The notes under the pieces are model-generated. The model saw only the letters and a program-made list of their open reading frames with translations. It did not search any database and was not told the DNA's origin. From Bacteroidales bacterium (GTDB lineage: Bacteria > Bacteroidota > Bacteroidia > Bacteroidales > UBA3663), in assembly GCA_024694125.1 (NCBI GenBank), contig JAILKE010000014.1, forward strand, positions 51,294-115,293: DNA of 64,000 nt. Direction: 5' to 3'. This document shows, in pieces, positions 8,301 through 54,153 of the stretch (position 1 is its first letter; every line of letters begins with the position of its first letter). The translations under genes and the position numbers were made by a program.

Positions 8301-10802
8301 ATACGGTGCAATCTGAGCCTGGGTGACGTCGGTGCTGAATTCGCCCGATGGTTCGTACACATGGGTGACCAGGTTGCAGCGCAGCATGCCCGGGGCATTG
8401 TCCTTGTCGATGTTGAACTGGATGTTGGTGGCAGCCTTGCCGCTCTCGCTCACTGTGCCCTTGCTTATCTCCTGTTCGGCTGTCTCGAACGATTTGGTCG
8501 GGTCGTCGAACGTGTATCCTTTCAGCGTGGGCCAGGAGGTCTTGCTCTGCACGATGGTGGCCGATATGTCGTATTTCAGCCCGCCCGCCTTCTGTCCGTT
8601 GAGCCACTCGGTGTAGAGCTGGGAGTGGTTGTCGCCCTTGGTGAGGGCGCCCTCGGGCAGGGTGAGGTCTATCTTGAGGCGGTTAGGCTTGATGGCCTCG
8701 ATGCGGAGGCTCTTCTCGAAGTTGACGCCACCTACGTTGATCTGGGCGTTCCACACGCCAGTAGGCGCATCGGCATCGGTCGCTACGTTGAAGGCATAGG
8801 TGCCCAGCGTGCCCGATGTGAGGGTCTGTGTGTGGACCAACTGACCCAGCGGATTGGTCAGGCGTAGGGTGACGGGATGGCCCTCGGGCAGAGTGCGCTT
8901 GCGGTCATTGAGCATGAAACCTATATGTAGCGTATCGCCTGGACGCCACACGCCACGTTCGCCGTATATGTAGCCCTTCAGTCCGCGCTGTATGCTCTGG
9001 CCCGATACGTCGAAGGTACTGGTCGATAGTGACTCGTTGTCCGTTATCTTGAGGTACGATACATCGTTGCCCAATGTGGCGACTATGTACGATGGTTGGC
9101 CAGCCTTGACGTCATAATGCAGTTGGGCAATGCCGTCTGCGTTGGTACGGGCAGTGGCGACGAGCTGCTGCTGGTGGTTGTAGGCCTTGATGTCGGTGTC
9201 GGCCAGTGGCAGGGCATCGGGCAGATTGACAGCCACGATGCTGATGTTCTGGTCGGTACCCCGCTGTGCAGTCAGACCGATGTTGGTGGCCAGTACGTTG
9301 CGCGCCACGATGCGGTCTTCGTAGTAATATGGGGTGGAGGGGTCCTTGCGCTTCTGGTAGTAGTTGTCCACCCACCATTGGTGTTTGTCGTGGCCCATGC
9401 CGGTGTAGTAGTAGGTCGTGTAGTCGAAGGTGCGGTTCTGCGACTCGAGCAGACGGGCATCCTCCTGGGCCAACTCCTGGCGGGACAGGGCAGGCAGCGA
9501 GTCGCTGGGCCATACCGACAGTCGGGCATCGAGGCTCAATTCGATGCGGTACATGGCGCCTGGTTCCACCTGGAACTGCTTCGACAGGTCGATGGCATAG
9601 GTGTGCCAGGTAGTGAGGTCAATGTCGGGCTGATCGATGTAGAAGGTGGTGGCAGCCACTGGACGGGCGGCATAGCACAGTCCTTCGTACGAATCGAGGT
9701 TGCCCTGCTGCATCATCGTGCCCATCATATTGGCAAATACCTTATAGACCAGGACGCGCACGCCACGCATGTAGATGCTGCGGAAGGGCACCAGTATCTG
9801 GTCAGACTGTGGTACGATGGTGCCGTCGCTCACGAACTCCACTTCGGGCTTGTTCGTCTTGATGGAGATCTCCTGTCTGTATGGTTCACCCAGCACGACT
9901 TGGTTGTGGCTGCGCAGAGACTTGTCCACGACCAGGGTGACCTGCTTGCCTGCCTGCATGTTGGCATAGGCTCGCACCACGTTGCCCTCCACGACCAGTT
10001 CAGTAGGGGTGCCGTCGATGTAGATCAGTCCCTTGTGGTCTTGTTTGGTATCGAGCGCCTTGTTGAAGGTGACCTCGATGTAGTGGCGGTCATCGGTCTT
10101 GCTGATCGCCTTGATGACCTTGAAGGAATGGAAGGACGGGAGTGAGACGTCGGTGAGCAACTTCTCCTCCAGACCGAGCGAGGCATCGGCTACGGACTGT
10201 ATGTTGAGGTTTATGTCCTTGTCCGGCTTGATGCCCAGCATCACCTGGTGGCTGGTGCCCTGGTCCGAGTGCGTCCAGTTGGTGGTGCACTTGTGGCTGA
10301 ATTGGACGTGCTTCTCGACTACTTCGGGTTTCTCGTTGTCGGCAGTGTTTATGGTGACCAATATCTGGTAGCCATCTTCGCCCTCAGTGAGGGTCTTGAC
10401 ATTGGCACTGAGCGCAAAGGGCAGTGTGTTGAACTGGAACGAGAATGGCTCCTTGGCCTCGAAGATGCGGTCTGTGCGGACCTTCGCCGTGTATTGGGTA
10501 TTGCGCTCCATTTCGTTGGTTGGACGGAAGGTCAATGTCCTGGCATCGGCCATGACGAACTTGCCATCCACCTTGGGCGAGATTTGCATCAAGTCGGCTG
10601 GCTGATACTTGTCCAGCACCTCCTGTGGGATGTCGGACGAAAAGAGAACACGCACTTCGCCCTGACGTGACAGCGAACCGCCGGAATAGGCGGAAATGTG
10701 TTCGTCGTAAGTGGGTGTGCCTGCTGTGTCACCGCCGCTGGAGCATTGGACGCACAACCAGGCTACCATCATGAATAGAAATAGTCGAATGTACTTTTTC
10801 AT
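5355..10802 (-). CDS. Bacterial alpha-2-macroglobulin lipoprotein
   Basis: 1815 residues from the ATG at 10802, chosen because it starts a lipoprotein signal (MKKYIRLFLFMMVAWLCVQC, then SSGG). It is a large bacterial alpha-2-macroglobulin family protein: MG-type beta domains fill the first half ('GYIYGERGVWRPGDTLHIGF' is the typical MG2-MG3 region). The thioester motif is HGCAEQ at about residues 1386-1391, so the reactive Cys-Gln bond is retained. The thioester-containing alpha/alpha toroid (about 1390-1650) and a C-terminal receptor-like domain follow. The family is thought to trap proteases in the periplasm. The next gene downstream of a promoter on this strand is pbpC, the usual partner. 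The region 10803-10975 between them has no gene. Confidence 0.92.
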   Translation of the reverse strand: MKKYIRLFLFMMVAWLCVQCSSGGDTAGTPTYDEHISAYSGGSLSRQGEVRVLFSSDIPQEVLDKYQPADLMQISPKVDGKFVMADARTLTFRPTNEMERNTQYTAKVRTDRIFEAKEPFSFQFNTLPFALSANVKTLTEGEDGYQILVTINTADNEKPEVVEKHVQFSHKCTTNWTHSDQGTSHQVMLGIKPDKDINLNIQSVADASLGLEEKLLTDVSLPSFHSFKVIKAISKTDDRHYIEVTFNKALDTKQDHKGLIYIDGTPTELVVEGNVVRAYANMQAGKQVTLVVDKSLRSHNQVVLGEPYRQEISIKTNKPEVEFVSDGTIVPQSDQILVPFRSIYMRGVRVLVYKVFANMMGTMMQQGNLDSYEGLCYAARPVAATTFYIDQPDIDLTTWHTYAIDLSKQFQVEPGAMYRIELSLDARLSVWPSDSLPALSRQELAQEDARLLESQNRTFDYTTYYYTGMGHDKHQWWVDNYYQKRKDPSTPYYYEDRIVARNVLATNIGLTAQRGTDQNISIVAVNLPDALPLADTDIKAYNHQQQLVATARTNADGIAQLHYDVKAGQPSYIVATLGNDVSYLKITDNESLSTSTFDVSGQSIQRGLKGYIYGERGVWRPGDTLHIGFMLNDRKRTLPEGHPVTLRLTNPLGQLVHTQTLTSGTLGTYAFNVATDADAPTGVWNAQINVGGVNFEKSLRIEAIKPNRLKIDLTLPEGALTKGDNHSQLYTEWLNGQKAGGLKYDISATIVQSKTSWPTLKGYTFDDPTKSFETAEQEISKGTVSESGKAATNIQFNIDKDNAPGMLRCNLVTHVYEPSGEFSTDVTQAQIAPYRRFVGIKAPQQTKQTQLDTDKNHTYSVISVDKDGQPQANVRIDVQIYKVNWYWWWSSTRDDLAGYTKSEHHTPFRDLTVTTDSEGKATFSMNIAEQKWGTYLIVAQDQESHHSTGVLSYFDWPWMTSRRSSENGENATQLTLSTDRKEYAPGDKIHLSVPSEAGSRAIVSICNGSQILSLRTYPCQKGQTEILLDVTEQMMPNVYLAVSLVQPYNQTLNDMPIRMYGITPVTVTSAASHLQPVVKCDDEFRSESTCQVTVSEQSGRPMGYTLAIVDEGLLDLTHFKTPDAWSLFNAREALGVRFWDMYQLVSGAYGGRIEQFFSIGGDEALNNAPKAIVNRFTPMVHFAGPFELKKGEKRTHSVNVPNYNGRVRVMVVAGDGQAYGHTDKSVLVRRPLMLIGTMPRQIGVNDEMTVAATVFATKALGKVRVQLSAADGLQVVGDKVQTLQFDAAGDQTVQFRIRAGEYAGMSTVSLQASAGGERADYTAQIDMRAVSIPMSQTTEVKIAPGQSYQTDITLPGNSDYKLLTELSAIQPLNMTCRINQLLAYPHGCAEQTVSKAFPQLYLAEFADLSLKEANEVEDNVKYCIRRIGSYQTPDGGIAYWPSSRNSNAWVSGYVLHFLTEAAARGYFVQTDMLNRLKTYVNKQANSWEPKFNGEENAYLLYVLANAQSSQLGAMNRMLEHATELSRTANDLLASAYALSGRKDISQKLLLSGTGNHYYHWFDAEAAHLMALDLVSDTKALECAESLRSRLMSNRWLSTSDCAMSLIALSHYYKHSKQSTGLNFQAKVNGKLIGDIDSRKFAWTTQTEVEQPKAKIEVTNRDKNGTLYLNLTTQGMASQSLVPASSNGLELTILYMDQNRRSIDPASLQQSTTFQAVLTVRNKTQDNVDNVAVTHIVPAGWEILSSKPNDGVSYQDQRDDRLLSYIDRLKRGASVTIEVTLSATYAGKYYLPAIHAEAMYDNQISGNTASSECVVQ

Positions 10803-10975
10803 AATCTGGGGAATATGTTGTTTAAATATTTTTAGGCAGATAAAAGAAGTTATAGACGATAATTGGACAACTTGCAATATTCAATTGTGTTTGCATCATA
10901 TTCAATTGCGCCGTTCCATTAGTCGTTTGTAACTTTAACCTCCCTCCCTATGCAGGGAGGGTCGGGGAGGGTCTT

Positions 10976-13300
10976 TTACTTCACCTCGAACCTGATTACC
11001 TTTCTGTTGCCCTGGTTATCGACCAGAGTGAGCCAATGTTCGCCGATGTCCGGGGCACAGGCAATGGAGTGATTTCCGTGGGTCTGTCCGATGTATTGGT
11101 CATCAATATGCCAGTAGAGCGTAGCCTCGGGGTCGCGGCAGGCGGCCTTCATGACGACCTTCTCGCTCTTGCCGCCGAAGTTGCGCGGTACGACCAATAT
11201 GGAGTTGTGTTCGGGCGTGATGATCGAGAACTGCTCGCGCGTGGTACTGAGGCAATCAGGTCGCATGGGAGGCAGTTTGCGGTAGGTCGTCGAGTGTCCC
11301 GCGTAGTAATACTCCTGGGTGGGAGGCAGGACGAAGCGCGACTCTGTGAGGATGCGGCTCACTGCCTCGCCCGCACTGTTGACCTGCCAGGCTCCATCGG
11401 CCGAGAGATGCACATACTGGCAGTAGGGACAAACTGCCGAGCCGATACATTGGCGTGGAATCATCTCGTTGTCGGTATCGGCGCAGATGCTGGATGCGAT
11501 GTGTCCGCTGTGCCGGCATATCCGTGCCGCCTGCATGTCCGCTGCCGGTTGTTCGAACCAGGGAGAGTCATCGAGCATGGTGAAGGCGTCGAACATCAGT
11601 GGGGCGGCGTAGCCCACACCGGTCAGACCTGCACGCCCCTCGCCGGATGAGTTGCCCACCCATACACCCACCGTGTAGCGTGATGTGGTGCCTATGGCCC
11701 AACCGTCGCGTGCACCCCAGCTGGTGCCGGTCTTCCAGGCTACTTGTTTCATCGAGCGGAAGTTGTACCAGTCAGCCTCTTCCTCGGGTCTGTTGAGCGC
11801 GCTCATGGCTTGGTAGGCGAACCAGATGGCGGAGGCTGATATGCGCGACGTGCCGTTGGGGCGCGACGTTGCTTGTGGGATGGGGGTGAGGCGCAATGGG
11901 TGCAGGTCTCGGTCATCGTATGTATGCCCCCCGGTATTGTAGTGATTCAGTCGGCGGGTCAGTGAGGCATACATACCCGTCATGTCCCACAGGGTACCTT
12001 CGGCTCCTCCCAGTATGAGCGATGCACCATAGTGGGCTGCGTCGTAGTGTAGGGTGGTCATGCCCAACCATCGGAGCACTGTCATGAATCGCTCCGTACC
12101 ATATTGAGCCAACATACGCACCAACGGAACATTGAGCGACCGGGTCACAGCCTCGTCAGCATGTACGATGCCGGAGAATGTCTTGCTGTAGTTACTGGGG
12201 GTGAAGCCGTTGATGTTGAGCGGTGTGTCGGCCACTATGAGTCGAGGCGTGATGTCACCGCTGCTCATCATGGCAGCGTACAGGAACGGTTTCAGCAGAC
12301 TGCCCGTGCTGCGTTCGCTGATGATGTTATCGACCTGCGAAGTGGCTGTCTGCTGTGTACTGTTGCCCACGTATGCCAGGACCTCTCCACTCTCTGCGTC
12401 GGCCACTATCAGTGCGATGTCACTGATGTAGTTGGCCTTGTAACGATGCGAGTATCGGTCTGCCATCTGTTGCAACTGCATCTGCAGTCCCAGGTCGATG
12501 GTGCTGCGCACGGTCTCTCCATCATGCTTGACTGCCAGGCGGGTTAGCAGGTGTGGTGCTCGGTTCGGTATGGGCAATGGTTGGTCGGGCAGAGGTTCGC
12601 TCAGTGCCAGGCTGTATTCTTCGGCGGTCAATGTGCCATCTTCGTGCAACAGCCGCAGCAGGGTATCACGTTTGCGGCGCAGCGCTTCGCGGTTGCGGCT
12701 CAGGTGTATCAGTGCAGGTGAATTGGGCAATACAGCCAGTGTGGCATTCTCTGCCCACGACAATTGGCTGGCACTACGGCCGAAGTATCGCCACGCTGCT
12801 GCATCAATGCCCACCGTGTTACCTCCGAATGGCGCGTGCGAGGCATACATGCGCAGAATCTCCTCCTTGCTGTACGTCAGTTCGATGTCCACTGCCCACA
12901 GGGCTTCGAGCATCTTCTGCCACAGGGTACGGTCCTGATTGCCTCGTGCCATGCGTGCCAACTGCATCGTGATGGTACTGCCGCCCTCGGCAATATGCCG
13001 GTGGGAGATGTTGCTCTTGATGGCTCGTATTATAGCGATGGGATCGATGCCTGGATGGTAATAGAATCGCTGGTCTTCGTAAGCGATGATGCAACGGGAG
13101 AACTTGTCGGTTATGCTGTCGGATTCGGGGAAGCGCCATTGTTCGTCGGTAGCTATGCGTGCTCCCACCAGTGCGCCGTTCCTGTCGGTCACTACTGTCG
13201 ATGTGGGACTGTCGAATAACGGGCGCGGCACCCACAGATGCAGTGCCGTCAGCATGGCTGCTATGACCAACAGTGCCAACCAATAAGGTTTGCGTTTCAT
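10976..13300 (-). CDS. pbpC: Penicillin-binding protein 1C
   Basis: 774 residues. A single N-terminal membrane anchor (about residues 7-24) is followed by a GT51 transglycosylase domain (EDQRFYYHPGID near 73, EGGSTITMQLAR near 106) and a transpeptidase domain with STGSLLKP (SxxK serine, about residue 330), SLN and KTGTS (about 523). The last 90 or so residues form the BiPBP_C domain typical of PBP1C. It polymerises and crosslinks peptidoglycan. Pairing with an A2M lipoprotein is a known arrangement thought to combine protease inhibition with wall repair. The ATG at 13300 (MKRKPYW) is preferred over 13315. A weak promoter may lie at 13381-13388. Confidence 0.9.
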   Translation of the reverse strand: MKRKPYWLALLVIAAMLTALHLWVPRPLFDSPTSTVVTDRNGALVGARIATDEQWRFPESDSITDKFSRCIIAYEDQRFYYHPGIDPIAIIRAIKSNISHRHIAEGGSTITMQLARMARGNQDRTLWQKMLEALWAVDIELTYSKEEILRMYASHAPFGGNTVGIDAAAWRYFGRSASQLSWAENATLAVLPNSPALIHLSRNREALRRKRDTLLRLLHEDGTLTAEEYSLALSEPLPDQPLPIPNRAPHLLTRLAVKHDGETVRSTIDLGLQMQLQQMADRYSHRYKANYISDIALIVADAESGEVLAYVGNSTQQTATSQVDNIISERSTGSLLKPFLYAAMMSSGDITPRLIVADTPLNINGFTPSNYSKTFSGIVHADEAVTRSLNVPLVRMLAQYGTERFMTVLRWLGMTTLHYDAAHYGASLILGGAEGTLWDMTGMYASLTRRLNHYNTGGHTYDDRDLHPLRLTPIPQATSRPNGTSRISASAIWFAYQAMSALNRPEEEADWYNFRSMKQVAWKTGTSWGARDGWAIGTTSRYTVGVWVGNSSGEGRAGLTGVGYAAPLMFDAFTMLDDSPWFEQPAADMQAARICRHSGHIASSICADTDNEMIPRQCIGSAVCPYCQYVHLSADGAWQVNSAGEAVSRILTESRFVLPPTQEYYYAGHSTTYRKLPPMRPDCLSTTREQFSIITPEHNSILVVPRNFGGKSEKVVMKAACRDPEATLYWHIDDQYIGQTHGNHSIACAPDIGEHWLTLVDNQGNRKVIRFEVK

Positions 13301-13503
13301 ATTTACCGATGTCAATGTTGCAAGGGCTGTTGTTGCGCCCCTCTACGTGTTAAGTGTTATTATATCGTTTTTCGTTGTTGCAAGTATATGTATTTTTTCT
13401 CAATTATGGGCCAATATCCTCAAATATTTTTTCTGTTGTCCGATTAAAGTCTATCCCCAGTCTGATAAAGTCAGTTGTAATTGCCAAATTTTAAACTTAA
13501 AAT

Positions 13504-25851: not shown

Positions 25852-26808
25852 TTAACGTATTACCAATTTCTTTCCGTCACAAACATAAATGCCCGGTTTT
25901 AAATTGTCTGAAGTCATATGGATTCCATCTAATCTATAAATGGACTTTTCTTTTTTACCACCTGTATTTGAGATACTGAGAATATCTGTAGTTTCTTCTT
26001 CATCTTCACCTATTAGATAGCGTATAGTCGGAGCGTAATATGGGACAGAAGTTCCATCTCGGTTTTCAATACGAAGAAACCATCTTTGAGGTTTAAGAGA
26101 TCCGGCTTCACTTGCAGCTCTACTAAGACCACCTATAGAATTTAGTGCATAATAATTATTCCCATACATCTCCTTCCCTGAGATTCCTTCATAGGTGCCT
26201 ACAAACGTAAATATCTGCTTCGTAGAAGAGCAATTAATACTATCTCTTTTGGCCGCATGTATAGTTGCATTATTTAAGTTCAAAGTTAAAGTAGTTTGTT
26301 TAGAAGGTTTTATGATATAAGGGAAATTAGCCTCTGTGCTACCCGATTTCAAAATTACGAATTCAATAGTTAAACTATCTAAATTCCCATCACCATTATT
26401 ATCCCACTGGTGAGTGTCAATCAGTTCTCCTATTTTAACGCCTTGGGCTGTGAGAGAATCTACAGGAATAGAAAATGGTACATACAAGGGATGCCAATTC
26501 CCAATTCTGGAGAAGTTGCGTTTGTAAAGAAGATTAGCTGTTGTGTCTGTCGATAGAGTATATCTTTCTCCATCATTAATTTCAATTACAGCAGGTATTT
26601 CAATAATTTTTTTGAAAAGCTCCCAATAGTTCGCATTTTCGTATGCTGATTTGCTGCCTTTGGGAACATATAGAGTTGAACCTCCTCCAGAAGAAGCTTT
26701 TGCCCCTATTGTGGGAGGTATAGATTTTAAGATAATTACCGAATCTGGACAACAAATACTAAAGATATTTTCGCTAATATTTGTAACGCTATTTGGGATG
26801 GTGACATT
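25852..26808 (-). pseudogene. BspA-like surface protein, C-terminal part cut off by the prophage
   Basis: The frame is open well beyond the first possible start (26487), up to the prophage edge. The upstream part reads INVTIPNSVTNISENIF and GSTLYVPKGSKSAYENANYW, diagnostic of BspA-type leucine-rich-repeat proteins. The end (IYVCDGKKLVIR) is a C-terminal tail typical of secreted Prevotella and Bacteroides proteins. It lacks its own start and signal peptide; these lie at 63091-63959. Joining the two at AATGT gives one frame of 606 residues with the repeat pattern intact (CNKLTN, then VTIPNS). The fragment is unlikely to make an exported product. Confidence 0.88.
26804..26808. repeat. Target-site duplication, right copy
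   Basis: ACATT on the plus strand (AATGT on the gene strand), identical to 63091-63095. Five bp is the duplication size made by Mu-type transposition. Confidence 0.85.
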
Positions 26809-26880
26809 TATAATCCGTAAAACGAAACGTTGCTGATTTTTTAATCGAAGCGTATATTTTCACAAAACGAAACGTATCTT
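26809..26880. promoter_or_regulatory. Right phage end with transposase-binding-like sites
   Basis: Three copies of a site: AAAACGAAACGT at 26819-26830, AATCGAAGCGTATA at 26843-26856, AAAACGAAACGT at 26864-26875. They are spaced 22-23 bp, about two helical turns, in the same orientation pointing to the edge. The arrangement matches MuA-type end binding sites. Confidence 0.7.
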
Positions 26881-26898
26881 TCGTCGCCACCCCTTGAT

Positions 26899-26937
26899 AA
26901 TACCCCGTAAAGTTCAAAATGAACCTTACGGGGTATT
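26899..26937 (-). terminator. Terminator of the retroelement
   Basis: An 18-bp stem with one mismatch (26899-26916 with 26920-26937) and a 3-nt loop, immediately after the reverse-transcriptase stop. Confidence 0.7.
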
Positions 26938-26941
26938 TGCT

Positions 26942-28243
26942 TTAAGTGAATATGTATTTTGTTCGACCTTTTCCAAATGTTTCCGTTTTAATTGTCGTCT
27001 CAAACGGGAACCCGTCCGGCACTTGAGCTATTTGAGCTAGAATATTCTTCATCTCTTCGCTATTTGTGAAAAATTTCTTTGGTTCTCCATTAACCTCAAT
27101 AGAAATAATGCAGCGGTCTTCTCCCTGATCAGTCTTGATTCCGGTCTCAAAATCTTTTACCACAATTGGAAGATTGACTAGTTCTCTAACACTGATAACT
27201 GCACCCGCGAAACGCTTTTTGCCATCTTCGGGTTTGTAGGATACGTTCAAATCTTTGAATGATTTCATATCTATACCTGTAATTTTTTGGAATAAGTTAT
27301 TGCAATCGGCATGCTTTGTCATGCCATAAAAACTTGCGATGAGCTCAGATCTTCGTTTACGGCTCAAGATGTCGTGCATGTGTTGAGCCATTCTCTTCTT
27401 AATACGTTTGCGTATTTTAACGTGAGTAGGATATATAACATAACCGAGAAAGTCGATTCCTTCCTCTATCGGGAAGATTCTTTCGTTCCCCTTCACTTTT
27501 AACTCAATAGAGGATATACGCTCATGTACTATATCTCTAATTGCCCATAACTGGTGCTTGTCAGGAGCAAGGACCACTCCGTCGTCACAGTATCTATAGA
27601 AATATCGAACACCGCATTCATCCTTCAGATAATGATCCAAATACGTCGACAAAAGCAGATTCCCTACACCTTGCGAACTGCGTAGCCCAAGTGATAGCCC
27701 ATGAGGCATTAAGCGGACAAAACCATCTAAAATTTTCAGAAGGGTTGGATCCTTAAATACTCTTTTAAGGCAATACATAGCGTACTCTTGATTGACGCTC
27801 TCATAAAATTTGGAAATATCGAATTTATAACAATATCGGGTACCAATCGGATCTTGCTGAATATCTCGACATATATATTTTAGCAGGTCATGCATACCTC
27901 TTCCTTTAATCGAGGCATTTGTCGTTCGAATAAATCTACGCCGAATATGTTTATCAACAACGGACATAATTGCATGTGCAGCTATCCGATCTCGCAATGG
28001 TAGTATTTGTATTTTCCTAGCTTTGCCCCCTTCAACAATCTCTTTCTCATAGAATGAACTGATTTTAAATGAGCCATTTTCTATCTCCGAAGACAATTCG
28101 GTAATTATATCTTCTTTGTGTGCCAAAAGATAAATGCCTTGCTGCGACTGTTTCCTTTCGGAGCCTCTTAACACCGAATCAAAAGAGAGTAGCATATTAT
28201 GATAATCGATGATTTCTTGGATTATATTACCATCTCTATGCAT
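26942..28243 (-). CDS. Diversity-generating retroelement reverse transcriptase
   Basis: 433 residues, within the range of these enzymes. The polymerase centre is YRYCDDGVVL (about residues 214-223). Motif 4 contains LGLRSSQGVGN (about 181-191), the SQ form that marks retroelement RTs of this class instead of the usual QG. KFDISKFYESV supplies the first catalytic Asp, and FLGYVIYP is motif 6. It copies the template-repeat RNA with errors opposite adenines, and the cDNA replaces the variable repeat. The template lies 198 bp upstream on the same strand. No Avd-type gene is adjacent. Confidence 0.94.
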   Translation of the reverse strand: MHRDGNIIQEIIDYHNMLLSFDSVLRGSERKQSQQGIYLLAHKEDIITELSSEIENGSFKISSFYEKEIVEGGKARKIQILPLRDRIAAHAIMSVVDKHIRRRFIRTTNASIKGRGMHDLLKYICRDIQQDPIGTRYCYKFDISKFYESVNQEYAMYCLKRVFKDPTLLKILDGFVRLMPHGLSLGLRSSQGVGNLLLSTYLDHYLKDECGVRYFYRYCDDGVVLAPDKHQLWAIRDIVHERISSIELKVKGNERIFPIEEGIDFLGYVIYPTHVKIRKRIKKRMAQHMHDILSRKRRSELIASFYGMTKHADCNNLFQKITGIDMKSFKDLNVSYKPEDGKKRFAGAVISVRELVNLPIVVKDFETGIKTDQGEDRCIISIEVNGEPKKFFTNSEEMKNILAQIAQVPDGFPFETTIKTETFGKGRTKYIFT

Positions 28244-28440: not shown

Positions 28441-28553
28441 CCAGACGAGAGCCGATGTTCGCGTTCGCATTCGATGGGTCGTTGTTCGCATTCGCACACG
28501 AAACGCCGCCATTCGCGTTCGCGTTATTGTACCCACGGGCAACCACACGGCTG
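28441..28553 (-). other. Template repeat (TR) of the retroelement
   Basis: 113 bp matching the variable repeat at 28779-28891 at 101 positions. Read on the minus strand it is full of AAC/AAT codons alternating with GCG. It has 25 adenines, of which 11 differ in the variable repeat; only 1 of the 88 other bases differs. The last 15 or so bases (CGGCTCTCGTCTGG) are identical in both and are the likely initiation-of-homing segment. The region 28244-28440 between TR and the reverse transcriptase has no gene and probably forms the structured 3' part of the template RNA. Confidence 0.93.
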
Positions 28554-28710: not shown

Positions 28711-31700
28711 TTACGATATCTCGCTCAACGCTTTATACGACGCGACGCTTTGCGCTTTGACGATTTGTCCGCGGAAGGCCAGACGAGAGCCGACGCTCGC
28801 GCTCGCATACGATGGGTCGTAGTTCGCATGAGCACACGAAACGCCGCCATACGCGTGCGCGTAAGCGTACCCACGGGCAACCACACGGCTGGAACTACCA
28901 GAGTAATAATACAGGTCACAATAGCCGGTAGAGGAAGAACCTGTAGCGTTGCCAACAGGTATGACATCGCAATATTTACCATGATAGACACCTCCAATAT
29001 AAGTTCCGGAATTAGTTGATCCCTTCACATTTCGGACCGAGCCATCTGGCATCGTGATGCTCCACAGTCCTGCTCCTGATTGGTTTACCCGAACATTATC
29101 CACCCAATCGTATTTGCAGCCATAAATATCCTCGTAGCCTAAGCAATTGGTACTCTTAATGGACGAATAAACTGCAGTACCATAGGCATCGGTCGAACGA
29201 TAGAATGCGGTTCCTTCCGAGTCATAGCCGCCGACAGTAGTCCCATCTGTATTGACAGTGTCCTGCATGCCCAGCAATGCTGTCGCCCCTGTAGTTCGAC
29301 TGTTCGTATGCGCACCTGCGCCGCATTGCATCTGGGAATTTCGACGTCCATATTTTATATAGAATAGGTTGGCAATATCTCGATGCATCTCGTAGTCGAT
29401 TTGTTGCATGCCTCGTTGGGCGGAATAATCATTGAACGAGGTCCAGGACATATTGCCCAATGTATAATCTCCATTGGCGCAACTACGCAGTTTGTCATTC
29501 ACGACCACACTTCCGAAGACTGCGGTCAAACACTCTTCATGCTCTACCCAGTCAGGCTCCATATCCTCAATCTTGTCACTATTGCTCAATACCACATTAT
29601 CGAAATCCACGGCGGTCGATATCGTAAAATATAGGTACTTAGCGCCTGAAGGGACATCGCAGATCAGATACATGCCATTCTCGAACTTATTTGTGAGAGA
29701 ACTGGCCGTTACAGTGCTGAGAATACCGTCAGATTCATCAACAAAAAGAGAACATTCCAAAGATTCTCCGACTACAGTAGGGAACCTCACGTGGCTATGT
29801 TGACTCACATCAACGCGCAATACAGCATAGCCCGACTTGGCAGACAGACTGTCCTCAATTGTATCATGGTTGCGCAGTAAGATATATCCGTTCCGATATC
29901 CTGCTGTATCAGCTACGAGATCATCCCACGTCTTAACAGTACAATCAGGCGTCGATGGTCTTGACGTACCAAAACTATAGCAGCTATAGTGCTTGTGGTT
30001 CAGATAATCATTGATTCCTTTGAACCAATAATGGGGTTCGTACATCATAACGTCGCCCTCTGATGCATCCAGGTTAGCTGCTGTGGCAGAAGAAACATCC
30101 TCCGAATCCGCGTAGAAATTAGAGTCATCGTCATGAAGTTGGCAAATAGTAGCAACTCCAGCACCTGTTATTTTAGACAACACCCTGTGACGTGCCGACA
30201 AAATAGCATTGATATGAGCGCTTGGAACATAGTCATTACCGTATTTGTATCCGGTTTTGTTGTCCAGATTCGATACGTTGGCATCATCAGACACACTATC
30301 GTCGAACTCAACCATAGTATACTCCGGTTGAATAATATTAAGTTCCGGGAAGTGAGCCGAAGCTGTGGCGTATGTTTCGTCGTCCATATACTTGGTTAGG
30401 TGGACGGTGCCAACTAAAGCACAAGTCGTCGTCGTATTGCCTTCGCTATCGATACCACCCAAGTTCATGAACGAATTGAGCCATGTGCCATCATCTTCTC
30501 TGTCAATTCCAGTGACTCGCAGTCTCTCCAGGTTTGGGCATTGATTCTTGATTGTTTCCCAGTCCAAGCCAGGGCAATTGTCAAACACCATCGATACGAC
30601 ATTGGAATAGCCTGCAATATTCAGTCCCGACATCGTAAGTTTCGGCAAGTATTCCAGGTAGAGGTATTTTATTGTGTCGGGCAAGATGGCAGAAGTGACA
30701 GGCGCACCTTTAGCGAATATAACACTATACAGTCTCGTACCACCGCAATCGAGTGACTGTAGCTTTTGCTGCTGACTTAGATCCAGTTCCGTGGATGTGG
30801 TACTTCCTGTTCGGGCCTGTTGCTGCCCATTGAGGTTCAATACGCGCAATTGCTTACACCCCGACAGCATCATATACCAGCCCGTGCTGCCAGAGCCATT
30901 GGACGTCATCACGAACTCACGGAGATTAGAGCAGAACGAGAGATCCAGCGCATTCTTTATGTTATCACCAATTCCACTCATATCCAATGTGACCATCCTG
31001 CTGGCGCCATACATGCGTATCGGGTCATTGATTGTACGAGCACCGGAGATAGACATCACAGCCTCTGTGCCGGCCTCTACGACACCCGTATTATATTCAT
31101 TTGGGTTGTTGATGGTGCCATATCCATACGCATACTCCTCACTACCCACGATTCGAATAGTATTGGCTTCCTCGTCTGTCGTGCGGCTTACGTAACAATC
31201 GATGAGATCTGCGCGAAAATCAGCAGTACCATACTTGGCATCCAGCAATGCTGCTCTGTTAGTCCACAAGAATGTTCGGTGAGTCTCGCATGATCCTTTC
31301 AATGCATAGATGAACGGCCAGGTTCGGCCATAAGTCTCTTCGATAGCAGGAGTCACATACTTGAAGATTCCGCTCTTGTTGTACTGCCGCTTTGACCAAT
31401 TACCCATTTGTTCCTCGTCAAACATGGTCAATACTCTGTTGGTCGTCATCTTCGTTCGGAAGTTGGCTGCCGCAGTTTTAATATCTTCCATGCAATTTGC
31501 CAGCAGCATATTCCACAACCAGCTATCGTGACCCTCGAAGGCATACTTGGAAGCTTCTGCATCCCAAGTCTCTCTCTTCAACGTATAGTCATATTTCAAG
31601 AATGAATCATTGCGGCGTCCCAGGGCTGTATCACCGTCGTAATAGGTGATATACCATATTAGTCCATCCCAAGTACGAAGCAACATATTCTTGGCGCGCT

Positions 31701-34700
31701 GATCTACGCTCATGAAGTAATCAGTGAAGACATACCAAGTGCACAGATGCTGGCGGTCGAAATAGTCATCCAGTTCAGAAGCAAATTTTGAACTTACCCA
31801 TGTCGAGATATCATCTGCATCTGCTCCGGCTGGCACGCAATCACGTATCCAACCCCACAAGCGTTTGATTGCGGTTTCCTGCTCTGTCGTCCAAGAAGTG
31901 GTTGTAACATCTTCTGGATAGTTGAACTCGCAGGCAGCATCAAAATTAGCAGTCAGGTCTTCGTCGCTGTCGGATTGGAAAAGACATGGACGGGCTGTGT
32001 TGTTGAGAAACTCCAGAGTAATTGGGCATACAGGCTCAAATCCATCCACGCCTTCCATTCCGAAGAGTTTGCCACTCTTTGACTTCTCATTGTTGAAGTT
32101 GTACTGGCCATAATAGGTATTCTCGCCGTCATCCGTCTCACTACCGAAGATATCAATCGGGAATCCATCTATAGCAGACCGGACAGATATCGCGCTTAGG
32201 ACCTCGCCTCCGTTCTCATACTCATATTGCTGGGGCGGAGTCAACAGCCCTAGCTCCTTCATCACGTCGTTGTAAAGCTTAGCCACGCCGGTGTTGAGTG
32301 CCATTGATGAATCTGAGTAGTCGGCCTTCATACAGAAGACGTTGTTGGCGATGCTGGTAGGCCGCATTTTATACTTACGGTTTTCTTGAAGGCTTCCATC
32401 GACATACAGTGCCAATTGCTCTCCTCCCTTATTCATATAGATGCGGTAATTCTTGCGTGGATACTTGGTCGACGAGGTACCCTGTATGCGCACATAGCAA
32501 TCCTTCAGTACGAAGTCATACTCCGAACCCATTGGTGAATAGAAGTAGATATCGCACTCGAAATCTGTCTTCTTATTATTCGTCATATTGAGTTCATCGA
32601 GGCCTCCGGTTCGAACGAAGCGCATTACACCTCTACCTCGTTGACGCAATACATCTATATCGACTTCGTTCTGTCCGCCCATGACATCATTGTCGTCATA
32701 TAGTTCAAGCATCTCATCCGCATCTGTCCTGTCCACGATGTAATTCTCTAGGAGTTCGTCATCGCTCAGGCACCGATTGTATATACGGATGTTCCTCAGT
32801 TCCACATCAGCCTCGTCACTTTGTATGACGAGGTTTTGAGCATCACCCTGCATAAAACTGAAAGTGCGGTCATATAGGTCGGCACTTGATAGAACGCCAT
32901 TCAGGTATAGTTCCATCAGACGCGATTCACTACGTGGCTGTATGGCAAAGGCAACCTTCAGCCATTCGTTTGGAGCATATTTCGAAGACAACTCTATGTC
33001 ACGAGTTACTTCGTCTCCATCCTCATTGGTATAGGTCACTGAAGTGCCCGTCTTGAAGCTTGCCTCCTGAGTCGTGACCGACAGGCCCATTCCATTGTCT
33101 ATGCACGAGATTACATTATAGGATCGGTCTGCAACGTTGCTCACTTTGATCTCGAACTCGACAGTCAAGCCAGTCGATGCTGCGTCGGTTTCGAATGGTT
33201 TGTAATCCAGTTCCACCTTCGCCCCATTAGTTAGTTTCAGGCTAGAACCCGTCCATCCGTTCGAACTCCAATCGAAGCCCGTTAGAACGGCACTATAATC
33301 GCCAGAGGTCCACTCTGCTGGCGAGGACTCCCCATTACTGCGGCCATCGGCACTCCATTTCGCAACGAGACCGTACGTTGCTTCACTTATCTCCACACCG
33401 CCATCGACTACTTCTATGTTCAATGTTGCTACACTTTCCCCGACACCGATTGCAAGCAAGTAAGTCCCTTGCTCTGCAAAACGGTTAGTTATAGTCTGTA
33501 CTGTTCGTGGCGCGCTGAGGGTTGCAATGGTTACTCCATCTCTCAGGACGGTCACGGTAGCGGGCGTCTGAACTGGATCATAAGCAACAAAGCTTATCTC
33601 CATGCTACGATATTGCCCCACTGATATAGATGGAGTTTGTGACGGACCGAAGATACGTCCGTCGCTGTTCACTATCTTTAACCCTACGAAAGGAGCACCG
33701 CTGCCTTGTATGCAGAAGTCCATATATATACTCTCGCTCAACAATGTCAGACTCTCGCTGGCAGCCATCTCTGCGACCATCTGCAAGCTGTGTTTGCCGG
33801 CAGATAGGCCTGCCATACTTACAGAGAAACTTCCGTTGGTAGTACCAGAACGAGTAATGGTTTGGCTATCGGCTTGGACTCCGTCCAGATACAACGTCAC
33901 TACTTTGCTGCCAGTGCCCGTGATGGCAAAAGGAATGCTCAGATTCCCTTCGGCAGAATATCCTCCGTTGCTTAGTCCCGAGGCAATGCTATAGCTACTG
34001 GTCAGGGACAACGATACGACCTTGACACTGACGTATGCCTGTTTTCTTTGCTCCGTACCTGTTGTCGGATCTGTAGTCGTGGCAAGCACGTACACGTCAT
34101 TGGTTCCGGACAGCAGATAGTCGCTGAGGTTCAAAGTGTAGGAACCCTTACTGATATCCTGCAATGTATTTGTATATGCCACTGTTGTTCCTCGCTTCAC
34201 CGTGATGGTGATGGTGGCCTTTTGTCCTGTACTTTCGCCATTGGCGTCTCCACTGTTGTACTGATGGTCATACGAGTAGGTCAATACGGCACTGCTGCCT
34301 TCCTTTATTATGCTTTGGTCCACCGCGGCCGAGAGCACGACCTTAGTCGTCGAGCCTGACCCGCTGCCCCCGGAACCTGCTGGGATCTCGAAGCTCGTTA
34401 CCACACCACCCTGCTGGTTGGTAAGTGATACCGTCACGGTGTTACCATCCTCGCTTGTCTCCACATCGGAACCAGATATGGTATTGCCCGACAACTCGTT
34501 TAGTCGGCTTGCGACAGCCTTGTTTTGCACTGGATTAGTGCTTTCAGTATCCAGGCTTTCGTCCACTTGTACCTCCTCGATTACCAGATTGACATTACCG
34601 TCTTCGTCTGGATCAATGGTGGTCCCATTCAAGGTCAATGATTTGACAGTTCCAGCCCCGCCGAAGTCAACCCAGCTGGCAGTCTCCGTCCAGGTGGTTA

Positions 34701-35535
34701 GAGACGTTCCGACAAATTGCTTGGTCTCCCACTTACCCACGGTTGTCTCATACGTGATGCAGCATCCCTTGCAGCGTCGCTTCTCTTCTACTGCAGCTAT
34801 AGCCGTTGACAATGTATAATAACCGGACTCAAGTGGATACACGGTCGTGACGTTGATGGTGTTGCCGCCTCCGGAACTGCTCGCCTCCGTCAGTGTTGCA
34901 TCATCCTCGCTCCAGGCATACAGTGTCTCGCCCAACAGATAGATCTTATCCTTTAATATCTGGGTCCGATCTGCGGACATATACAGATCTGCAGTATCCC
35001 ATTCACCATAGTAAACATCTCCACTTTTAGCAGCGAAACAACCGGCAGATTGCAGGTAATAGATTCCATCAACGGACGGAGCGGTGCCGCTTTGCAGCGT
35101 TATCTCTCCTTCTACTATGCCGTCTATACGTGTTGTTGCACCTCGAGCACCGGCATTTGCCGTGACCTCATACTCTTCTGCTATTTGCTGGACCACTTCT
35201 GCAGCGGCAATGGCGTTCGTTGTCGCCGCATCGGCTTCATCCGCTGCTAGAGTAGCTGCATCCTTGGCCGCCACTGCGTCCGTTGCAGCTGCATCTGCCG
35301 CACTCGCCGCTGCAGACGCCTCTGCTGCAGCAGTATTGGCAACAGCAGCAGCCTCTGTTGCAGGCGCTCCGAGGAGTGACAATGGTGCCCGCACCACATC
35401 ATCTCCCCTCATAGCCGGCAGTGAATCTATACCGTCCAACGTGGACACTTCCTCAAGCGCATCGGCAGATTGGCTATTGGCCTCAATTTGATTGAGAACC
35501 TCTTCGATGATTGTAAGCTTCTCTTCGTCTGTCAT
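28711..35535 (-). CDS. Giant tail protein diversified by the retroelement
   Basis: 2274 residues. An Ala-rich coiled-coil-like N-terminus (about 60-130) probably attaches it to the tail. A beta-rich region with Ig-like repeats follows, then a LamG/concanavalin-like domain (about 720-930). Next is a segment resembling CotH kinase (about 1000-1310: RIQGTSSTKYPRKNYRIYM, VDQRAKNMLL, YYDGDTALG), and a leucine-rich-like region (about 1510-1690). The last 250 residues look like a C-type-lectin fold: GLWSITMPDGSVRNVKG, then SSSRVVARGY, the usual scaffold for such variable repeats. Residues about 2215-2253 are encoded by the VR. It is likely a receptor-binding protein or adhesin at the tail tip. Confidence 0.88.
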   Translation of the reverse strand: MTDEEKLTIIEEVLNQIEANSQSADALEEVSTLDGIDSLPAMRGDDVVRAPLSLLGAPATEAAAVANTAAAEASAAASAADAAATDAVAAKDAATLAADEADAATTNAIAAAEVVQQIAEEYEVTANAGARGATTRIDGIVEGEITLQSGTAPSVDGIYYLQSAGCFAAKSGDVYYGEWDTADLYMSADRTQILKDKIYLLGETLYAWSEDDATLTEASSSGGGNTINVTTVYPLESGYYTLSTAIAAVEEKRRCKGCCITYETTVGKWETKQFVGTSLTTWTETASWVDFGGAGTVKSLTLNGTTIDPDEDGNVNLVIEEVQVDESLDTESTNPVQNKAVASRLNELSGNTISGSDVETSEDGNTVTVSLTNQQGGVVTSFEIPAGSGGSGSGSTTKVVLSAAVDQSIIKEGSSAVLTYSYDHQYNSGDANGESTGQKATITITVKRGTTVAYTNTLQDISKGSYTLNLSDYLLSGTNDVYVLATTTDPTTGTEQRKQAYVSVKVVSLSLTSSYSIASGLSNGGYSAEGNLSIPFAITGTGSKVVTLYLDGVQADSQTITRSGTTNGSFSVSMAGLSAGKHSLQMVAEMAASESLTLLSESIYMDFCIQGSGAPFVGLKIVNSDGRIFGPSQTPSISVGQYRSMEISFVAYDPVQTPATVTVLRDGVTIATLSAPRTVQTITNRFAEQGTYLLAIGVGESVATLNIEVVDGGVEISEATYGLVAKWSADGRSNGESSPAEWTSGDYSAVLTGFDWSSNGWTGSSLKLTNGAKVELDYKPFETDAASTGLTVEFEIKVSNVADRSYNVISCIDNGMGLSVTTQEASFKTGTSVTYTNEDGDEVTRDIELSSKYAPNEWLKVAFAIQPRSESRLMELYLNGVLSSADLYDRTFSFMQGDAQNLVIQSDEADVELRNIRIYNRCLSDDELLENYIVDRTDADEMLELYDDNDVMGGQNEVDIDVLRQRGRGVMRFVRTGGLDELNMTNNKKTDFECDIYFYSPMGSEYDFVLKDCYVRIQGTSSTKYPRKNYRIYMNKGGEQLALYVDGSLQENRKYKMRPTSIANNVFCMKADYSDSSMALNTGVAKLYNDVMKELGLLTPPQQYEYENGGEVLSAISVRSAIDGFPIDIFGSETDDGENTYYGQYNFNNEKSKSGKLFGMEGVDGFEPVCPITLEFLNNTARPCLFQSDSDEDLTANFDAACEFNYPEDVTTTSWTTEQETAIKRLWGWIRDCVPAGADADDISTWVSSKFASELDDYFDRQHLCTWYVFTDYFMSVDQRAKNMLLRTWDGLIWYITYYDGDTALGRRNDSFLKYDYTLKRETWDAEASKYAFEGHDSWLWNMLLANCMEDIKTAAANFRTKMTTNRVLTMFDEEQMGNWSKRQYNKSGIFKYVTPAIEETYGRTWPFIYALKGSCETHRTFLWTNRAALLDAKYGTADFRADLIDCYVSRTTDEEANTIRIVGSEEYAYGYGTINNPNEYNTGVVEAGTEAVMSISGARTINDPIRMYGASRMVTLDMSGIGDNIKNALDLSFCSNLREFVMTSNGSGSTGWYMMLSGCKQLRVLNLNGQQQARTGSTTSTELDLSQQQKLQSLDCGGTRLYSVIFAKGAPVTSAILPDTIKYLYLEYLPKLTMSGLNIAGYSNVVSMVFDNCPGLDWETIKNQCPNLERLRVTGIDREDDGTWLNSFMNLGGIDSEGNTTTTCALVGTVHLTKYMDDETYATASAHFPELNIIQPEYTMVEFDDSVSDDANVSNLDNKTGYKYGNDYVPSAHINAILSARHRVLSKITGAGVATICQLHDDDSNFYADSEDVSSATAANLDASEGDVMMYEPHYWFKGINDYLNHKHYSCYSFGTSRPSTPDCTVKTWDDLVADTAGYRNGYILLRNHDTIEDSLSAKSGYAVLRVDVSQHSHVRFPTVVGESLECSLFVDESDGILSTVTASSLTNKFENGMYLICDVPSGAKYLYFTISTAVDFDNVVLSNSDKIEDMEPDWVEHEECLTAVFGSVVVNDKLRSCANGDYTLGNMSWTSFNDYSAQRGMQQIDYEMHRDIANLFYIKYGRRNSQMQCGAGAHTNSRTTGATALLGMQDTVNTDGTTVGGYDSEGTAFYRSTDAYGTAVYSSIKSTNCLGYEDIYGCKYDWVDNVRVNQSGAGLWSITMPDGSVRNVKGSTNSGTYIGGVYHGKYCDVIPVGNATGSSSTGYCDLYYYSGSSSRVVARGYAYAHAYGGVSCAHANYDPSYASASVGSRLAFRGQIVKAQSVASYKALSEIS
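28779..28891 (-). other. Variable repeat (VR) in the tail protein
   Basis: 113 bp aligned without gaps to the TR. On the coding strand every Asn codon position of the template may be changed: the protein has A, Y, H, Y, H, N, Y, Y, S, S and V where the template would give ten N and one I. All but one of the 12 base changes are at template A; the exception is a silent G to T in an Ala codon. Confidence 0.93.
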
Positions 35536-35547
35536 AATCGTGATTTT

Positions 35548-37983
35548 TTATTCGTTTGATCCATTATATTGAACCCCGATAAGGATTCCATTCTGAAAAG
35601 TCAATGTATAGTCGGCAACTTCTATGGTCTGCGTTATGCCAGGTGATATATTTTCGCCGCTTTTCGAGCAGAATGATTCCGCTATGAGATTACCGCATAC
35701 TGTTACACCTCCATCAAAGAACCCAGCATAGGTTTCATCCAGGTTAGGAGTGTTTTGAGGGGTACTGTATCTGCTCGAAAACACTCCTGCTCCTCCCATA
35801 TTGCTGCCTGTCACCTTGATACCATATCGGCCTTGTGAGGCTGAGCTGAAGAAGATATCTACGACGCCTTCTGTGTCGACGGAAGGGAGACCTATCTGCA
35901 AGCTCTTGCTCACGCCTCCTAAATATGCTGCTTGTTCCCATTTCAACTCATTGTCGATGGTAAATCCTCCGATGGAGCCAGATGAGGCCTGCACTTCTCC
36001 TGTAAACTTGCCATTTGTTGCCTCTATGCTTCCATCCTCCAGGATCTTGAAATTGCCATTAGCAGTTACAAGTCCCTCCAATTGAATATTGGTCGCCTGA
36101 AGTTTTATAGTGCCATCATCGTTCACTCCCAACAGGGCAACAGTTCCATCCGAGTTCTGGACATATATACCTGCTCCCTCGGGTTTCACAAACAGTCCAG
36201 TCTCACTAAGTGCCGTCGCATTCTTATCAAAGACAGCCGCGCAAATCTTTACCAACCGTTCAGTCTGCTGGAACAGTGTGCGGTATTGATAGGCCAAAGC
36301 TTCGGTCTTGTCTGTACTTAGCACCAGCATATACAGGTATATATCTCCACTGAAGCTTAATTTAAAGTCTCCGGTACCGTTCCATAGGCCATTGCAGGTG
36401 AATTGTTCATAACCTTCAGTCACTGCAATTTCCTCTTCAACATTCATCGATGTGAAGTCTTCAAACCCTGTCGTATCAACATTCTCAAACGTCACGTTCA
36501 ATGTCCCAGCTGATGCGCATCGATAATAGAAACTCAGATAGACCGGTACTGGAGATTTAAGTCCATCTGATTGAGTTTCGATGGCAGGTTTGGTCCGGAG
36601 ATTATCATTCAGTTGCTGAATGAATTTATTTCGGATATGCACGACTTTTCGGCCCATGTCATTGACCACGACAGCACTGTTCCCCAGCTTGGACAGCACG
36701 TTATTATTTACCCAGATCCATTTGTTGCCGAGCAGATAGAATACCGCCTCGTTTTCGGTCCGCCAATTATCCATACCCGAGCCGAATGTGGCATTTGAGA
36801 GATACCCCTTGGCGTCCATCACATCTTGTCGCAATCCTTCGACCGAACTTTCAATCAATCCTTCAGTCGCTTCAAAGCGAGTTTTGACATCATCGCCATT
36901 CTCCAATAGAAATGAGCCTTTCAGATAAACATTGTCTGCATATAAGCCATCTCCCTGAGGTTGATTGTCTGCTGGGAACCAGTTATCCGATATGCCGTCC
37001 AAATTACCGAGACGGGCTCGGAGGCATCCATCCAGGCTGGTCGATTTAACTCCGTTCAATATATCCAGTCTCGGTTGACCGTCTTCCGTAGCTGACAGCA
37101 ACAGCAGATTCTGTCTCATGGCATTGGTCCGGCTTCCCATCAGCACACATTCATCACCTTCAGCTGGCACGCTTGTGCCGAATGCCTCTTTAGCCACAAC
37201 CACGGTATTGTCTGACTCTACGCTGGCAACCTCGACCCAATAGTCTTTCAATCCATTTCCTGACCATGTACTGCATCTTATCAAGTCACCCGGCAAGAAA
37301 CTGTTTGTTTCCTCAAAGACTATTTGATAGACCTCTTCTTGCTCAGTCACGGTTTTGATTCGTCCATTGGCGGCACTGACAACTATCGCACCACCGACAC
37401 TGCGAATTTTCTGTACGAGCAGTTCCATCACAGTCATGCTTTGGCGTACGGTCAGTTTATCGACAGTCAAACGGGCCTTGCCATTCTCATCCATCCACAT
37501 CCTGAATCCGCTACCGGTTAATCCGTCTATGAACTCTGATGCACTCCTTATGCCCGGATGCCTCACCTCATCTCTCTTCCGGACGGGTTGGTCTAACCAG
37601 TCAGAGAAGTCCTCTCCAGCCCAACACGTAGCATCGTCTGCTTCTGCCGCATGTGTCGCTTCATCGGCATTCATAGCATGCCCCGCCTCGTCAGCATAGC
37701 CGGACTTGATTTTTTCGTGGACTATTACTACGTCTTCGGCATCTTCTGGCGTCGTGACTTCTTCCAATGTTAGATATCCATCGGAATCTGTCCCAATCTT
37801 GTCCAATAGGGCTTTGTTCTCATGCGTATGACTGCTACCGTTATTACTTACGGCATCTCCTGTTGCAGCGACAGAGGAGCCTGAAGCGTTTGTCGTTGAT
37901 GTGCTGGAGGTCGCGAACCTGCGCCGTCTGCTTCTTGGCAACGCATCCTTCTGGGTTACCGTGATTACATACTTTTTGCTCAT
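35548..37983 (-). CDS. Tail tip / baseplate protein
   Basis: 811 residues. A basic, Ser/Thr-rich N-terminus (RSRRRRFATSSTS) is followed by an Ala/Asp/Glu-rich stretch (ADEATHAAEADDAT) and then a domain of the type seen in siphophage tail-tip proteins (LTVRQSMTVMELLVQKIRSVGGAIVVSAANGRI). The C-terminal third has short beta repeats such as EATNGKFTGEVQASSGSIGGFTIDN, found in phage host-specificity proteins. It is 12 nt from the diversified tail gene and 4 nt from the next upstream tail gene. Probably structural; exact position unknown. Confidence 0.72.
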   Translation of the reverse strand: MSKKYVITVTQKDALPRSRRRRFATSSTSTTNASGSSVAATGDAVSNNGSSHTHENKALLDKIGTDSDGYLTLEEVTTPEDAEDVVIVHEKIKSGYADEAGHAMNADEATHAAEADDATCWAGEDFSDWLDQPVRKRDEVRHPGIRSASEFIDGLTGSGFRMWMDENGKARLTVDKLTVRQSMTVMELLVQKIRSVGGAIVVSAANGRIKTVTEQEEVYQIVFEETNSFLPGDLIRCSTWSGNGLKDYWVEVASVESDNTVVVAKEAFGTSVPAEGDECVLMGSRTNAMRQNLLLLSATEDGQPRLDILNGVKSTSLDGCLRARLGNLDGISDNWFPADNQPQGDGLYADNVYLKGSFLLENGDDVKTRFEATEGLIESSVEGLRQDVMDAKGYLSNATFGSGMDNWRTENEAVFYLLGNKWIWVNNNVLSKLGNSAVVVNDMGRKVVHIRNKFIQQLNDNLRTKPAIETQSDGLKSPVPVYLSFYYRCASAGTLNVTFENVDTTGFEDFTSMNVEEEIAVTEGYEQFTCNGLWNGTGDFKLSFSGDIYLYMLVLSTDKTEALAYQYRTLFQQTERLVKICAAVFDKNATALSETGLFVKPEGAGIYVQNSDGTVALLGVNDDGTIKLQATNIQLEGLVTANGNFKILEDGSIEATNGKFTGEVQASSGSIGGFTIDNELKWEQAAYLGGVSKSLQIGLPSVDTEGVVDIFFSSASQGRYGIKVTGSNMGGAGVFSSRYSTPQNTPNLDETYAGFFDGGVTVCGNLIAESFCSKSGENISPGITQTIEVADYTLTFQNGILIGVQYNGSNE

Positions 37984-53401: not shown

Positions 53402-53650
53402 ATGAAGAAAATCTTTAGTTTTTTGTCACAATCTAACCGCTTTTGGCATTTATTGGGCGGTTTTGGCGTCGCAATCATCACGTTGCATGCAGGTTACGCA
53501 ATCTACTCTGCCTTCGTGGCAGCCACTTGCCTGGAACTCAAGGACCATCTCTACCAACGTAAGGCTGACTGGATTGATTGGGTTCTCACCTTCGGCGGCG
53601 GATTGCTCGCAGCTTTGGTTATCTTGATCCTGAAGTACATCAATCTCTAA
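53402..53650 (+). CDS. Small membrane protein of the head block
   Basis: 82 residues, two to three hydrophobic segments (about 17-45 and 60-78). The pattern ATCLELKDHLYQRKADWIDWVLTFGGG recalls the KE.YD...D..D...Gg motif of YfiM/DUF2279 and VanZ-like small membrane proteins. Its place after the MuF toxin-like gene makes an immunity role possible, but a structural or lysis role is equally open. Confidence 0.6.
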   Translation: MKKIFSFLSQSNRFWHLLGGFGVAIITLHAGYAIYSAFVAATCLELKDHLYQRKADWIDWVLTFGGGLLAALVILILKYINL

Positions 53651-53661
53651 CAGTTAGCAAT

Positions 53662-54153
53662 ATGAATTATTCTAGAGTTTCTGGGCCAGCCGACGCTCCT
53701 TGCATTGAGTGTATCAATCCGGTACGTGGACGCTGGTGCATCCGCTGGGACTATCAACCCGACGCCGACAATTCGGCGCTGGCGTCTTACATAGAGTGCA
53801 CGCTGCAGCACAAGCCCTCTGCCTCCGAGGTCACTGACATCATTACTGCCTGGGTCAATCAGCAGGTGGATCAACGGATCTTGCAGGGGCTTACATTTGA
53901 GGGCTCCGTCGTTTGGCTCTCCATCGAGAATCAACTGAACTACAAGTCTGCTTACGACCTCGCAGTTCAGACCGAGGGAGAATCGCTGCCCGTTGTCATC
54001 AAGATGGGACCGGAGGAAGCACCGGTTTATCGGCAGTTCTCTGATCTTACCGATTTTTCCAGCTTCTATCATGATGTCGTCAACCATATCGAACGCAGCA
54101 TCGCATGGGGATGGGAGCAGAAGGACGCCATTGATACTACTCTATATACTTAG
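53662..54153 (+). CDS. Phage protein of unknown function
   Basis: 163 residues from ATG at 53662. An alpha/beta protein with PCIECINPVRGRWCIRWDY near the start and FYHDVVNHIERSIAWGWEQKDAID at the end. The latter recalls proteins next to tail or head genes in Bacteroidetes phages. No recognised family. It is the last gene of the plus-strand block; as the gene downstream of a toxin-like MuF it could also be an immunity protein, which is speculation. Confidence 0.6.
   Translation: MNYSRVSGPADAPCIECINPVRGRWCIRWDYQPDADNSALASYIECTLQHKPSASEVTDIITAWVNQQVDQRILQGLTFEGSVVWLSIENQLNYKSAYDLAVQTEGESLPVVIKMGPEEAPVYRQFSDLTDFSSFYHDVVNHIERSIAWGWEQKDAIDTTLYT

Follow-up and report, generated by a model that had tools for sequence, protein, structure and literature searches.

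Does the long tail protein encoded at this locus contain a genuine CotH-family kinase domain, and if so, is that domain built to work as an enzyme? The protein, 2274 amino acids in length, is encoded at positions 28711–35535 (−) of the window, the 64,000-nucleotide stretch of DNA analysed here. Using tblastn, the ORF aligns to Bacteroides phage p00 (hankyphage) and its relatives with 56% identity over 92% coverage, and it matches phrog_14959 and phrog_5302 (‘tail’). By sequence comparison, it is homologous over its full length to the hankyphage p00 tail fibre, which is diversified by a DGR, and the probable role of the window protein as a tail fibre is taken from this homology and from the literature. 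The surrounding prophage carries Mu-type transposition genes, a phrog_310 transposase (58700–60703) and a phrog_296 transposition protein (57796–58665), which together with the homologous fibre identify it as a hankyphage-like transposable phage. The same prophage also encodes a major head protein and a maturation protease, and contains a match to a tape-measure protein. Outside the prophage, at 5355–13315 (−), lies a host gene pair encoding a bacterial alpha-2-macroglobulin and a penicillin-binding protein with transglycosylase, transpeptidase and BiPBP_C domains.

The fibre is a chain of recognisable modules. The N-terminal part is followed by a LamG-like, or concanavalin-like, lectin region (residues ~769–928; 32752–33231, −), the CotH domain, a leucine-rich-repeat (LRR)-like region (residues ~1515–1735; 30331–30993, −) and a C-terminal C-type-lectin-like domain that contains the DGR variable repeat (residues ~2000–2262; 28750–29538, −). 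The LamG-like region matches the lectin domain of the sialidase 4c1w by phmmer (E 0.0039), and PF13385 scores above its cut-off in the p00 homologue. In our second structural model, the LRR-like region is formed from regular short strands, with pLDDT mostly 80–96, and gives weak Foldseek matches to LRR proteins, SHOC2 and InlA among them. The C-terminal domain matches phrog_5302, and the fold around the variable repeat resembles the C-type lectin TaqVP (5vf4; Foldseek probability 1.00, E 5.9e-3), the repeat itself being modelled with low confidence. These results bear out the initial annotation, which had described a diversified tail protein with neighbouring LamG and LRR-like regions.

The variable repeat (VR; 28779–28891, −) is paired over 113 bp with a template repeat (TR; 28441–28553, −), and 11 of the 12 differences between them fall at TR adenines. 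Downstream lies a DGR reverse transcriptase (RT; 26942–28243, −; PF00078, E 1.4e-12; phrog_1423). The adenine-specific VR/TR pair and the adjacent RT mark the fibre as a DGR variable protein. No accessory (Avd) gene was recognisable between the RT and the next ORF (window 25852–26942), so the DGR either has no Avd next to its RT or has one elsewhere; that next ORF (25852–26487) appears to belong to the host. The gene annotated as Avd in one hankyphage record (PV107408; locus L137, 11025–11510; also L136, 11550–12035) matches DUF4376 (PF14301), which scores above its cut-off for the p00 copy, and the Avd label is therefore doubtful. A DUF4376 homologue with 46% identity is present in the window at 53578–54153 (+), far from the DGR and on the opposite strand.

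Several lines of evidence identify the CotH domain. The Pfam profile PF08757 scores 32.4 bits on the fibre (curated cut-off 23.8; E 9e-8) and is also found, at E<0.01, in 15 of the 18 aligned close relatives. An independent profile, built from 17 host CotH proteins only, detects 27 of 45 phage domains, including that of the window protein (E 4.8e-7), and gave no match among 945 reversed or shuffled decoys. When the 45 phage sequences were compared with the 17 host sequences by hhalign, the two families aligned over 286 columns with a probability of 97.5% (E 8.5e-12), and every motif block was present in the same order. When the CotH region was searched directly against the sequences in the PDB, no CotH protein was returned; at the sequence level, the link to 5jd9 is made by the host-CotH profile only. 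The fold provides a separate link. An AlphaFold model of residues 941–1500 (pLDDT 87.1, pTM 0.88) was searched against the PDB with Foldseek, and the only entries returned at E<0.001 were 5jda (E 1.4e-11) and 5jd9, both the CotH kinase of B. cereus, with target TM-scores of 0.71–0.73. Chance resemblance of short motifs is ruled out by the decoy test, the profile-profile comparison and the fold match. HipA kinases have a catalytic loop, TDGHAKN, that resembles VDQRAKN of the fibre and appear among the low-scoring Foldseek matches, but at E ~0.3 these are not significant, and the HipA architecture differs from that of the fibre domain.

Based on profile comparison and predicted structure, we conclude that a genuine CotH-family kinase domain lies inside the DGR-diversified fibre of a hankyphage-like transposable prophage. 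The initial annotation had placed a CotH-like domain at residues ~1000–1310 and had named the lack of a kinase-like fold as grounds for dismissing it. The domain and its fold are there, and PF08757, the profile proposed for checking it, scores above cut-off, but the boundaries were drawn too narrowly: distant relatives align to the fibre over residues ~1008–1445 alone, and the helices of the C-lobe lie past residue 1310. The domain therefore spans residues ~1008–1445 (31201–32514, −). Compared with the spore-coat CotH kinases (PF08757; B. cereus 5jd9 and 5jda; B. subtilis), it has the same fold and the same order of motif blocks, and shares with them the catalytic Asp, the Asn, the metal Asp and the aromatic residue that precedes the metal motif. 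It differs in being embedded in a 2274-residue phage fibre, in having insertions between the blocks and in an altered NGeY signature, a change found in the phage domains. Identity to the B. cereus structure is only ~10%.

The three motifs singled out in the initial annotation, RIQGTSSTKYPRKNYRI at residues 1016–1032, VDQRAKNMLL at 1277–1286 and YYDGDTALG at 1298–1306, occur as described and in CotH order; they correspond to blocks I, IV and V of five. We took the roles of CotH residues from published work (PMC7821199, PMC12189002) and assigned equivalence by alignment. Block I (32440–32490, −) corresponds to the RGxSS...KK motif of CotH, with G1019, S1022 and K1028 invariant. Block II, KADYSDSSMALN (32293–32328, −), matches the ‘D.t..RN’ helix, and its K1070, D1072 and N1081 do not vary. 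Block III, YYGQYNFNNEK (residues 1141–1151; 32083–32115, −), is equivalent to NGeYxGxYxLxE; G1143, N1148 and K1151 are invariant, and position 1150 is E or D throughout. Block IV (31678–31707, −) is the putative catalytic loop, in which D1278 and N1283 are the predicted equivalents of PKA D166 and N171, residues already equated with positions in CotH (PMC12189002), as has been done for PKA D184. D1278 aligns with D228 of B. subtilis CotH, and its spacing to N1283 (+5) is that of the NFDGFVHN loop of 5jd9, which is followed there by PWDYD. In block V (31618–31644, −), the likely metal motif, D1300 aligns with B. subtilis D251 and PKA D184, and D1302 would be the second Asp of the DxD. The metal Asp lies 22 residues from the catalytic Asp, compared with 23 in CotH. 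Substitution of D228 or D251 inactivates the B. subtilis enzyme (PMC7821199). The adenine in CotH is sandwiched by two aromatic residues, Tyr142 and Trp245; Y1299 occupies the Trp245 position, which is aromatic in all 45 phage sequences.

To what extent these residues are preserved was analyzed in two sets of relatives: 45 sequences from viral contigs and, separately, 78 sequences comprising the window protein and 77 from genome contigs. The second set extends to pairwise identities as low as 29% and was drawn from Bacteroides, Phocaeicola, Prevotella, Muribaculaceae, Chryseobacterium and one Clostridia MAG. K1028, K1070, D1072, K1151, D1278, N1283, D1300 and D1302 are unvarying in both sets (45/45 and 78/78). 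The relatives were retrieved with patterns for blocks I and III, so the conservation of these two blocks is partly selected for; neither set was retrieved with patterns for blocks IV or V, whose conservation is free of this bias. Along the full-length fibre, invariant positions are densest at residues 1001–1050 and 1301–1350. Close pairs of sequences give dN/dS values of 0.04–0.13, indicating purifying selection. Taken together, the invariant catalytic residues, the fold match, the profile scores and the low dN/dS mark this as a genuine CotH domain with an apparently intact catalytic site. We reject a degenerate pseudokinase, given no loss of a tested catalytic residue in 78 sequences and the same dN/dS range; the domain may nonetheless have a non-catalytic role.

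The combination of a CotH domain with a diversified phage protein belongs to a known kind, as earlier reports and database names precede it. Benler 2021 mentions occasional phage fusions of a CotH-family kinase domain with a hypervariable C-type lectin and describes them as unstudied (PMC8008677), Ye 2014 counts CotH among DGR targets (PMC4159848), and several phage proteins are already named CotH in BFVD. These fusions show the same pairing as the window fibre, a CotH domain and a DGR-diversified phage protein, and the initial annotation’s view that a kinase-like domain in a phage receptor-binding protein, next to LamG and LRR-like regions, would be unusual is not supported in that form. The two accounts, in the passages concerned, amount to one sentence and one table row, with no analysis of active site, structure or conservation, and the sentence of Benler 2021 names no particular phage. 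The DGR-targeted fibre of hankyphage p00 shares its DGR layout and its CotH motifs with the window fibre. The words CotH and kinase are absent from the hankyphage papers PMC6199706 and PMC12135933, and sequence records label the fibre hypothetical or tail fibre. The Pfam profile misses the domain in p00, because its score of 10.4 bits falls below the cut-off of 23.8. Within the literature examined, to which other papers could add, what appears to be new is that the prototype hankyphage fibre carries a CotH domain, that the active site is conserved, and that the domain persists in proteins without the lectin and the DGR.

This persistence is seen at several loci. Of 25 non-redundant viral loci whose downstream sequence extends for 1.9 kb or more, 18 have a DGR RT 3' of the fibre gene. 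Several loci (L098, L102 and L104) encode CotH-core proteins with neither a C-type lectin match nor an RT. Chryseobacterium chromosomes (L208–L214 and L216) encode proteins of ~1610 residues that have only the CotH part in common with the window fibre, at 32% identity and with all catalytic residues; their N-termini differ. CotH is therefore the part of these proteins that stays constant, the receptor end being what varies, and the role of CotH can be separated from the diversification of the receptor. The idea that CotH depends for its function on the diversified lectin is correspondingly weakened. CotH-domain matches are also numerous elsewhere: several species of the window’s genus (genomes G003, G004, G005, G007, G008 and G012) carry 12–22 per genome, and the window’s own genome carries three.

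What might the domain do? No signal peptide is evident at the N-terminus of the fibre sequence, so the description of CotH proteins as secreted, made in the initial annotation, does not apply here, and the fibre would be synthesised in the ATP-containing cytoplasm. In Bacillus, CotH is itself a structural component of the spore coat, and other coat proteins depend on its kinase activity for their assembly (PMC7821199). Cytoplasmic ATP and this parallel favour phosphorylation at the time of assembly. We suggest that the CotH domain may be an active ATP/Mg-dependent Ser/Thr kinase that would work inside the producing cell and phosphorylate its own fibre or a different virion protein while the tail assembles or matures, a proposal to which we give an even chance. 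The altered NGeY signature of the phage domains counts against it, and the host cell surface may be the target instead. On this proposal, binding would fall to the lectin, LRR and LamG modules, with the kinase core as the constant element of the fibre. One candidate substrate was considered and dropped. The neighbouring tail protein (35548–37983, −) has an N-terminal 30-residue stretch that is 50% Ser/Thr, reminiscent of the Ser-rich region of CotB for CotH, but this stretch is not conserved in related phages.

A serious rival, though on balance an unlikely one, is a non-catalytic scaffold. The CotH fold with its nucleotide and metal site would be kept as a structural or adhesive module of the fibre, with conservation reflecting ligand binding and fold stability in place of phosphotransfer. 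The domain does stand among the binding modules LamG, LRR and C-type lectin, and Mucorales CotH proteins are reported in published work as invasins that bind host GRP78. A scaffold would, however, be expected to lose some catalytic residues in some lineages, and D1278, N1283, D1300 and D1302 persist in every one of the 78 sequences despite divergence to 29% identity.

Two further readings accept catalysis and differ in where it occurs or in what is transferred. ATP is scarce outside cells, which makes it improbable that the fibre phosphorylates host surface proteins at adsorption, altering a receptor or triggering entry. In favour, the fibre is a predicted receptor-binding protein with a DGR-diversified lectin at its C-terminus; against, the CotH core is present in some phage proteins that lack the lectin or the DGR, and no surface substrate is known. 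The analysis yielded no evidence of action on host surface proteins, which the initial annotation had suggested the domain may bind or modify. It is very unlikely that the domain catalyses a different transfer reaction of diverged kinase folds, such as AMPylation or glutamylation. Kinase-like folds are known to switch chemistry, as in SidJ (PMC6858067), and the phage clade has invariant residues of its own (Q1018, T1020, K1151 and K1282); on the other side, the D..N of the catalytic loop and the DxD match those of kinase-active CotH, and there is no positive evidence for another chemistry.

Phosphorylation within the producing cell is the reading that we carry forward. Tentatively, we extend it to hankyphage-type fibres as a group, which may be enzymatically active, the CotH core phosphorylating fibre or tail proteins, or a receptor, and so coupling assembly or receptor engagement to the enzyme. 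Several Bacteroides species are reported to carry hankyphages, which are also reported from samples around the world, and their virions assemble abnormally in the laboratory (PMC6199706, PMC12135933). Phosphorylation was not among the variable modifications listed for the published mass-spectrometry search. An apparently intact CotH core in a DGR-targeted fibre poses a testable question, whether virions or fibres are phosphorylated in assembly or infection, and offers a concrete case in which to ask whether a phage fibre doubles as an enzyme. If it does, CotH chemistry would extend from spore coats to phage particles, and a widespread clade of gut phages would have an enzyme built into its receptor-binding protein.
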